Shown piece by piece: positions 3 through 40,765 of a stretch of 64,000 nucleotides of DNA; position 1 is the stretch's first letter, and the number at the start of each line of letters is the position of its first letter. The notes beneath the pieces are model-generated. The model made no database searches, was not told the DNA's origin, and saw only the letters and a list, made by a program, of their open reading frames with translations. The DNA lies in the NCBI RefSeq assembly GCF_964355755.1, contig NC_092672.1:22812501-22876500 (forward strand). Direction: 5' to 3'. Origin of the DNA: Antedon mediterranea. Taxonomy: Eukaryota > Echinodermata > Crinoidea > Comatulida > Antedonidae. A program made the translations under genes and the position numbers.

Positions 3-194
3 ACAGACTATACAATCTCATGGCGCATCTTGACATCTACTAAAGCATATAGTAGCGCAAACAAAAAATGCAATCTCTGCCTCAAAGAGAAATTATTTAT
101 CATCCGCCACCCTGAATTATCGACATTAAACAAACGTAACGAACTTGTGTCCGCCTGCCGGCACAGAAAGAAAGCATTGTTACATAACAGCTGA
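3..194 (+). pseudogene. Penelope-like element, C-terminal end of the RT/endonuclease ORF (partial)
   Basis: An open frame enters from the left edge and ends at TGA 192-194, giving about 63 residues. It contains CNLCLKEKLFII, then LNKRNELVSACRH and RKKALL. The C-x2-C plus C-R-H arrangement and the LNKR-EL run are characteristic of the C-terminus of the GIY-YIG endonuclease domain of Penelope-like retroelements, where these residues form a zinc-binding tail. No frame break is visible in this piece, but the reverse transcriptase and most of the endonuclease lie outside the window, so integrity cannot be judged. The hammerhead ribozyme 85 bp downstream supports the family assignment. Whether the element lies upstream of, or in an intron of, the ankyrin-Roco gene is unknown. 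Family recognition is from motif memory, not a search. Confidence 0.8.
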
Positions 195-279
195 CATTCC
201 AAAACATATCACCTGTAAATGCTAATTCTACAAGTAAATGTGCTTATAAGCAGCGTTGTAATTGATTCTTCTCATTATA

Positions 280-328
280 GTCTCCTGATGAGTGAGTTGC
301 ACGACTCATGAAACAAGCCTGTAGAGAC
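280..328 (+). ncRNA. Hammerhead self-cleaving ribozyme (Penelope-associated)
   Basis: All hammerhead elements can be laid out. Stem I is GTCTC (280-284) with GAGAC (324-328). The core CTGATGA is at 285-291. Stem II is GTGAGT (292-297) with ACTCAT (304-309), closed by a 6-nt loop and containing one G-U pair. GAAA is at 310-313. Stem III is ACA (313-315) with TGT (320-322) around a four-base loop. The cleavage-site nucleotide is A323, predicting scission between 323 and 324. Every universally conserved core position is present. Hammerheads are known in Penelope-like elements, where they sit in the terminal repeats next to the ORF, so the position just after the endonuclease stop codon fits. The short stem III resembles retroelement hammerheads that may work best as dimers. 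Confidence 0.82.
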
Positions 329-344
329 CAAACTGTAGTTTTTA

Positions 345-5715: not shown

Positions 5716-5787
5716 CGCCCCAACCGAGACTCGAACTCGGACCGCCTGCTTGATATGCAGATGTCCTAACCATTAGACCACTGGGGC
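5716..5787 (-). tRNA. tRNA-like gene, anticodon ATC (nominally Asp), possibly a pseudogene or SINE head
   Basis: Read on the minus strand, 72 nt fold into a full cloverleaf. The acceptor stem is GCCCCAG with TTGGGGC (one G-U pair). The D arm is GTCT/GGAC with GG in the loop. The anticodon stem is TCTGC/GCAGG around ATATCAA, the variable loop has 4 nt, and the T arm is CCGAG/CTCGG with loop TTCGAGT. Box A and box B promoter motifs are intact, and a TTTTT Pol III terminator follows 2 nt after the discriminator base. Anticodon positions 34-36 are ATC, which would read GAU. Animals normally use GTC for aspartate, so the identity is suspect. No CCA is encoded, as expected in eukaryotes. Confidence 0.55.
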
Positions 5788-30753: not shown

Positions 30754-31224
30754 GGAGGTTTCGCAACACGGTTATGTCACACAAAATTATTCGTTTTCAT
30801 AAGCCAGTACAAATCTGTTTCGCATGGCAACAAAATATTGAGGGCGCCATCCAAAATCTGACTGCTGTAAATTTGAACGAAATGCAGGTACATGTTTCAA
30901 TGGTTGCCTATAGGCCTAGTGTAGCGAGAGAGGACTTTAAAAACTGCTATTTATCAAAATTGACTTGGCATTTTTACTAAATTACTTTCAATAAATTATC
31001 TATAATTATATTATAATCATGAATCATTTTTTATTCAATGCAAAGCGTGCAAAATAGATAAAAAACTATGACTGATGATTTTAAGCTATACTCGTTTTTT
31101 AGTTACGAATATGACTGGTGATATTCGTCAACACAAATACACTTTACGAATATCAGCTCAAAAGTTTAACAAATGTATGACCTATCCGTTTTCGTTATCG
31201 TATTCGTAAGGTTGCGAAACCTCC
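30754..31224. mobile_element. MITE-like element with 14-bp terminal inverted repeats
   Basis: GGAGGTTTCGCAAC at 30754-30767 is matched by its exact complement GTTGCGAAACCTCC at 31211-31224. Internally, CGAATA/TATTCG words near the right end also occur as inverted pairs. No transposase is encoded in the 471 bp. A target duplication could not be fixed with confidence (TAA precedes, ATA follows). Confidence 0.65.
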
Positions 31225-40174: not shown

Positions 40175-40613
40175 TTATTACTGGTCCTCAAGTTTAACTG
40201 GAAACTGAGGAAATTCGGATTAGGCCCTCCACGGACCCACTGCAGCCAGCAGTGCAGCGCCTACCAGATCAGCACACCGGGAGACGATCCCCTACTCTTT
40301 TCGAATAGTGTACCAAGTTCTTTAGCGTGCACTGTTAAGTACACGGGACCAACGGCTTTACGTCCCATCCGAAGGACGAGGCAATGAGAGTAAAGCATCT
40401 TGCCTAAGGATGCAATTAGTATGGTACAGATAACCTCGAACCCATGCCTATCACATGCTAGTTCGATATTACCTTTCCACCATCACTCTCTGGTGTATAT
40501 ACAGCACCCGCCGCTATTTCTAGACGGTCTCCCATCCAGAACGCAACCGGGCCCAACGTTGCTTAACTTCGGTGATCTGACGAGAACCGGTGTTTCAACG
40601 CAGTATGGCCGTA
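40175..40613 (-). mobile_element. 5S rRNA-derived SINE
   Basis: On the minus strand the head (40613 down to about 40500) aligns to 5S rRNA through TACGGCCATAC, CAGATCACCGAAGTTAAGCA, GGGCCCGGTTG and CTGGATGGGAGACCG, ending GGGTGCTGTA. These cover the internal Pol III promoter regions (box A, intermediate element and box C). After it comes a GGGTTCGAGG motif like a tRNA box B. Then comes a body with TCCTTCGGATGGGACGTAAA, CACGCTAAAGAACTTGGTAC and TCGAAAAGAGTAGGGGA, which resembles the conserved central domains of widespread metazoan SINEs (recalled, not searched). The element is non-coding and depends on a LINE or similar partner. 5S identity is clear; SINE subfamily is not. Confidence 0.8.
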
Positions 40614-40614
40614 T

Positions 40615-40765
40615 AATTTGCACACCTGACTAAAGTCATGTATACGGCCTTGTTAATCATCTATTTAAATAATATTTACAACATAGTATAAAACTGACTC
40701 CAAATAACAATGATTCAACGTTTCAAACTTTATTTGATCATCATCAGGAATGATGATAAAATGTA
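40615..40765. repeat. Flanking direct repeat of the 5S-SINE, copy 2
   Basis: This is the second copy of the 150-bp repeat, in the same orientation as 40021-40174. Transcribed on the minus strand it lies immediately upstream of the 5S head. The order is therefore repeat, 5S, body, repeat: either a truncated tandem dimer of one SINE family or an element with terminal direct repeats. Confidence 0.85.

Follow-up and report, generated by a model that had tools for sequence, protein, structure and literature searches.

The window is a stretch of 64,000 nucleotides (C3:22812501-22876500) of the Antedon mediterranea genome (354 Mb, 18 contigs); bases 1-368 contain the 3′-terminal part of a plus-strand retroelement. 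An ORF in the frame of base 3 contributes its last 63 codons and stop codon (3-194, stop at 192-194), the end of a putative endonuclease with 59% identity over 61 aa to a protein of locus L098 (E 3.5e-18), which belongs to the related element family F2. The upstream remainder of this ORF lies outside the window, at L011 6627-9095, and is broken. After a spacer of 85 nt (195-279; direct reading, ORF coordinates) follows a plus-strand sequence that can be folded as a minimal type I hammerhead ribozyme (280-328). The element then continues through 329-368 to a short 3′ end (...CCAGACTTAACGTATA), defined by comparison of genome copies; the long tail is absent here. An A/TA-rich flank (369-403), seen by direct reading and copy comparison, is the presumed insertion target.

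On direct reading the hammerhead core is complete, with CTGATGA (CUGAUGA in RNA) at 285-291, GAA at 310-312 and A323 as H17, so that CUGANGA ... GAA(A) ... UH is arranged between three helices and is open at stem I. Stem I joins GTCTC (280-284) to GAGAC (324-328) in 5 bp. Stem II with its loop occupies 292-309 and pairs 292-297 with 304-309 in 6 bp, including a G292-T309 wobble (U309 in RNA), and a seventh pair, U-G, is possible. Stem III (313-322) consists of 3 bp, ACA/UGU (313-315 with 320-322), around an AGCC loop; A313 we take to be base 15.1 of this stem in hammerhead numbering. Placing the cleavage position between 323 and 324 assumes the hammerhead convention, and self-cleavage there is a predicted activity. 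The base pairs, core nucleotides and cleavage site given in the initial annotation were all correct. The ribozyme as a whole was assessed by direct reading, genome copies, covariation, dimer folding and a held-out covariance model, stem I by direct reading and covariation, and stem II by direct reading and genome copies. When 280-328 was folded alone, the minimum-energy structure kept stems I and II without the hammerhead stem III, and its energy was ordinary relative to shuffled sequences (z -0.96).

We searched the genome for copies with the 49-mer of 280-328 carrying C at 309, allowing up to 3 mismatches. This gave 67 matches, 34 of them exact, and 0 with the reversed control. T309 was seen only in the window copy; because the other 66 matches all have C309, the G292-U309 wobble is private to it. 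This pair, which we take to be 10.1/11.1, adjoins the core and presumably weakens the ribozyme. In a count by eye, core positions were changed in 8 of the 67 copies of this family (F1), and about 10 of the 42 mismatches overall would be expected by chance on the 12 core positions of 49. Core changes are thus about as frequent as chance predicts, which suggests that inserted F1 copies decay freely, with no sign of selection after insertion.

A looser pattern, CTGANGA-gap-GAAACA-gap-TGTA, had 350 matches in the genome versus 15 for its reversed control, and the matches listed (up to C3:30.8 Mb) included F1, F2 (CTGAAGA...ACAAATTTGTA), F2b and F3. A family F2c was found in L009/L013 and a family F4 in L041. 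Loci with further hammerhead families in the same genome are L009, L013 (2798-2851, minus strand), L046-L052 and L098-L102. The F2 post-cleavage sequence alone occurs at 183 genome places, and many of those listed are head-to-head pairs. The F4 hammerhead (L041:838-882, plus strand) has C as its cleavage-site base, and its stem III element is a perfect palindrome of 10 nt.

We aligned six sequences for covariation, namely F1, the window form of F1, F2, F2b, F2c and F3, with F4 left out. Base pairing held in 96.1% of 77 cells. Of the 13 pairs, 5 had changed on both sides; stem I accounts for four of them and stem II for one. The covariation score was 0.467 compared to 0.175 for shuffled alignments (0 of 500 reached it) and at most 0.109 for slid alignments, and these data show helices of a type I hammerhead kept by compensatory change. 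Stem III is invariant across the aligned families and uninformative on compensation. Lack of compensatory change in stem II among genomic copies had been named at the outset as grounds for abandoning the hammerhead; such change was present between families, the comparison that this test covers, F1 copies being too alike internally.

A strict structural finder (5/5/3 bp) gave one match in the window and one in total over 100 first-order Markov windows of equal length. With Rfam, cmscan of positions 1-1200 reported no hammerhead even at E <= 10, and none appeared over the whole window at gathering score. A search of the whole genome with RF00163 gave 0 matches, as did its 14 controls, so this search was uninformative. 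We then used a covariance model trained on three sequences only, F2, F2b and F2c, which represent another family lineage of the same genome. This held-out model detected 280-328 at 36.8 bits with E = 3.8e-8 (E-values of this search are rough) as the sole significant match in the window, the next having E = 0.16. It also recovered untrained copies, namely further F1 copies, L052 and two F3 loci (E 0.00038), and it has limits of its own, as it missed the F4 ribozyme at L041:838-882. The covariance-model search proposed in the initial annotation was therefore negative with the Rfam models and positive with the held-out model, and because the latter succeeded we do not take the silence of Rfam as refutation. 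In excerpts of two reviews, PLE hammerheads are described as minimal variants without helix III (PMC6155905, PMC7761336), and for this reason the curated Rfam models may be too demanding. Rfam thus overlooks this short-stem ribozyme, and a model derived from related families of the same genome picks it up. Weak matches of the held-out model (14.6 bits, E 0.16-0.17) at window 30803-30862 and L011:1062-1121, both on the minus strand, come from near-identical repeat copies that include a hammerhead-like 3′ half.

To the left of the window, L011 carries RT-like and putative endonuclease ORFs spread over several frames. Its segment 8007-8318 is missing from L004 and L010, which points to about 312 bp of inserted DNA in the window copy. 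With this insertion and its frame breaks, the window copy reads as a broken insertion of the element. Some copies look intact; the frame of L031, for instance, stays open over at least 597 aa. The F1 and F2 proteins share 54% identity, and the F2 ribozyme of L098 begins 83 nt after the stop codon, compared to 85 nt in F1. Among the 76 places with an F1 3′ end, 45 extend into the ORF end, to window 158 or beyond it on the left. The association of ORF and ribozyme, which had been proposed from one copy, is thus confirmed in many copies and in a second family.

Profile searches supported RT weakly and the endonuclease not at all. RVT_1 matched one L011 piece at E 0.0014, which is below the Pfam cut-off, and one of four aligned proteins at 0.017, and it was not found in the L031 or L098 proteins; a DUF6483 match in L011 passes its cut-off. 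The endonuclease had no profile or PDB match among the element proteins searched, PDB likewise gave nothing for the RT part, and a profile of the F1, F2 and F3 proteins gave 0 matches against PDB. By eye we read the RT motif YRDD and an endonuclease motif VIYQATV...ETYIGLTE...RYRNH, which we take to be that of GIY-YIG endonucleases. It is from these motifs that the ORF would be identified as encoding RT and a GIY-YIG endonuclease. The assignment of the element as a putative endonuclease-bearing PLE is supported mainly by its layout (3′ ends, truncation, head-to-head copies and TA-rich targets). Because RVT_1 is missing in two proteins and the endonuclease is unnamed by profiles, we lowered our confidence in the preferred explanation set out below. 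Separately, L027, L028 and L029 (C1, 6.6-7.1 Mb) share a common element fragment and similar neighbouring ORFs and probably belong to a duplicated gene region.

F1 copies end either at ...AACGTATA (window 368) or about 63 nt later, after a tail that is present in 38 of 76 copies, and TA-rich DNA follows. The sequence TATTGAGCACT is common to the tails of F1, F2 (L047, L098), F2b (L101) and L052, and in F4 GAGCACTCT lies behind the ribozyme. Two alternative 3′ ends are a tail signature tied to two RT start sites (PMC11167929). Besides these ends, we found 5′ truncation (36 mapped 5′ ends) and head-to-head F1 pairs (L017, L018, L041), all as in PLEs. The hammerhead also lies in terminal sequence, as in PLEs, here on the 3′ side (67 matches).

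At the other end of the element, the 5′ part of the ORF was matched at 10 places, 3 of which reach the ATG. The starts of L030 and L032 are only a few bases from AATAAACCGCTATG, and L031 extends about 20 nt further upstream, up to an abundant repeat of another kind. No ribozyme or tail was found upstream of the ORF at any of the 10 places (1.5 kb, element's strand), and no direct repeat (pLTR) before the ORF was seen at these places; PLEs typically have one, although a single or truncated copy may not. At the edge of L035, 34 nt of pre-ribozyme sequence on the opposite strand mark the start of a head-to-head copy. In the 9.2 kb to the left of the window ribozyme (L011), the held-out model found nothing at E <= 0.01; besides the window ribozyme, L011 has only a weak minus-strand match (E 0.17). 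The idea of a tandem terminal repeat, with a second ribozyme upstream of the ORF, was therefore unsupported at the 10 places and in L011. A 5′ pLTR in the sequence upstream of the L031 ORF was likewise unsupported, as about 75 nt of the query belong to this abundant repeat (of 580 candidates, 40 matches were scored). The approximately 20 nt before the ORF leader there (L031:1480-1500) contain GAGCACTCTAC, an echo of the tail motif.

Minimal hammerheads in PLEs are already known in print, and 280-328 adds a member that is real and correctly read. Minimal type I hammerheads of Penelope-like elements are reportedly the subject of work by Cervera and De la Pena (2014) and by Lunse, Weinberg and Breaker (2017). 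As far as excerpts of the reviews show, these ribozymes have a weak or absent helix III, lie in PLE terminal sequence and are reported to cut as dimers (PMC6155905, PMC7761336). The ribozyme described here agrees with them in being type I, in its weak helix III, in its position in PLE terminal sequence and in dimer cutting, which in our case is a prediction. It differs in lying only behind the ORF in the copies sampled, in a stem III of 3 bp and in the presence of several families in one genome. PAc, a Poseidon PLE of Anolis (PMC11167929), likewise combines a hammerhead with an RT and endonuclease ORF, whose domains were here read by eye, and it shares the two alternative 3′ ends (tail), the AT-rich targets and a template that need not be cleaved. 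In PAc, however, the ribozyme overlaps the ORF start, whereas we sampled a 3′ part that lacks the ORF start and saw no tandem units. The Penelope families of Adineta vaga (PMC3846280) resemble the present element in head-to-head inverted copies, 5′ truncation, microhomology junctions and an optional tail. Their tail is 31 bp, compared to about 63 nt here, and the present element differs further in that no direct pLTR was seen before the ORF at 10 places.

The very short stem III had led to the suggestion of a weak monomer that may need a dimer, and folding prediction supports this. In 6 of 7 sequences a structure other than the monomer hammerhead had the lowest energy. The stem III element is self-complementary at 8 of 10 positions in F1, 10 of 10 in F2, F2b, F2c and F4, and 8 of 9 in F3; in the window, 8 of the 10 bases of 313-322 would pair between two copies of the element. 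The nearly self-complementary stem III in each family makes a double-hammerhead dimer likely. Such a dimer was the computed minimum for 3 of the 7 sequences (F2, F3 and F4); for the other 4, F1 included, its energy exceeded the dimer minimum by 1.0 to 3.2 kcal/mol. For F1 the double hammerhead was at -30.3 versus a dimer minimum of -32.1, and two monomer hammerheads sum to -23.2; for the window form the values were -25.9 and -29.1. The predicted dimer fits the claim, reportedly made in one paper's title, that PLE hammerheads cleave as dimers.

Taken together, these data make it quite probable that 280-328 is the 3′-terminal hammerhead of an endonuclease-bearing PLE, family F1, which would act as follows. 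The transcript would span the ORF, the ribozyme and then 45 to about 108 nt more. Judging from copy ends, reverse transcription would have two alternative start sites in this 3′ part and would usually pass through the intact ribozyme. Two ribozymes, whether on separate RNAs or within a single multi-unit RNA, may pair via the self-complementary stem III element and a shared stem I, and the predicted double hammerhead would cleave 3′ of A323. The template could be made without need of cleavage, and the likeliest use of cleavage would be the trimming or separation of element units in longer transcripts. In the window, the ribozyme is probably weakened by G292-U309.

At least 59 of the 67 ribozyme copies extend past the cleavage site, which suggests that the copied RNA is usually uncut there, and on this ground we rejected a cleavage footprint as the main mechanism. 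A weaker form, in which cleavage sometimes makes the template, RT runs off the cut 5′ end and some copies start exactly at G324, could be examined because several ribozyme families in one chromosome-level genome allow copy 5′ ends to be compared with the cleavage site. For F1, all 76 places were mapped and 36 ends kept. We excluded 31 ends that reach the limit of a locus or the start of the window, L005 (at 8, out of range), L080, L055 and L065 (locus edge), and L010 and L025 (changed internally). Where copies share their flanks (L067/L068; L027-L029) they were counted once, and the arms of L017, L018 and L041 were counted apart. Across window 100-340, 24 of the 36 ends fell at 100-279, 12 at 280-324 and 0 at 325-340. 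Those of L040 and L023 were exactly at 324 and that of L042 within 322-324, all at or within two bases of the predicted cleavage site. The chance of two ends at one named place among 12 is 0.016. Against this, only 2 of the 36 ends are exactly at 324, points 282 and 313 hold 2 each as well, L042 and L023 have microhomology, and L025 (junction 327) was set aside as an internal deletion.

For F2, 100 of the 183 places were listed; the selection passed over 22 on C1-C3 that adjoin a ribozyme, and 7 on C7 were left out. In all 74 rows were mapped, among them 3 of those 22, which lay inside fetched stretches. The 50 rows taken without that selection had 13 ends at 0-58 and 10 at 59-160. A base-exclusion pattern for the F2 footprint gave 2 matches, of which L096 is a 3-nt deletion and L097 fits; in this head-to-head pair the first base of both arms lies directly behind the cleavage site or one position earlier. 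The corresponding F3 pattern gave 0 matches. A start at the cleavage site was nevertheless found in only 1 of the 74 F2 rows, and offset 20 holds 5. The combined chance for F1 and F2 is about 0.03 when all positions are treated as equally likely. We regard the excess of ends at the cleavage site as a hint, part of which could be explained by microhomology with TA-rich targets and a general excess of short copies. It is rather unlikely that cleavage now and then supplies the template, and we give equally little weight to the corresponding statement that a minority of new PLE copies was made from hammerhead-cut RNA and left genome footprints at the exact site. If true, these would be evidence from genome copies for in vivo cutting by the PLE ribozyme and for its involvement with the template of retrotransposition. 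This first 5′-end map points to mostly uncut templates, with a weak hint of cut ones.

The many copies made from RNA uncut at the site also fit a role in which the ribozyme fold is retained because it offers the element protein a landing or priming structure near the RT starts, with cleavage of little or no importance, and ribozyme mutants of the Anolis PLE insert normally in vitro (PMC11167929). However, the core bases persist between families even though stem I has changed in most of its pairs and stem II in one, and CUGANGA...GAA...UA would be superfluous for a mere hairpin; we consider this role improbable, to about the same degree as occasional cut templates. A motif that is a passive fossil, its copies alike only from recent common descent, is much less likely still. 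The frame breaks, the insertion of about 312 bp and the private G-U of the window copy, as well as the by-eye count of core changes in F1, agree with decay, but this would hold for the window copy and not for the motif, given the compensatory changes between families and the long open ORF of L031. Least likely, and barely credible to us, is a retrozyme, a small non-autonomous hammerhead repeat, lying beside the PLE by coincidence. Many animal type I hammerheads sit in retrozyme repeats, according to an excerpt of PMC7229834, yet here the ORF end and the ribozyme travel together (45 of 76 copies), and the two smallest same-strand spacings among the 67 ribozyme matches are 901 and 2261 bp. Metazoan retrozymes form ORF-less tandem repeats of 150-450 bp, and no such array was seen among these matches. 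The 3′-terminal PLE hammerhead, with trimming as the likeliest use of its predicted cleavage, thus remains our preferred reading.

Elsewhere in the window, Rfam matched a tRNA at 5716-5787 (minus strand), probably the head of a tRNA-derived repeat; a near-identical sequence lies beside element copies in 9 of the loci retrieved (two overlapping). A 5S rRNA match of 73.8 bits (Rfam) lies at 40496-40616 on the minus strand, and an exon at 2813-2912 on the plus strand (DGRSALHLAARTGHSACCNLLVDAGSDINIQAR) was labelled ankyrin-repeat-like by eye.
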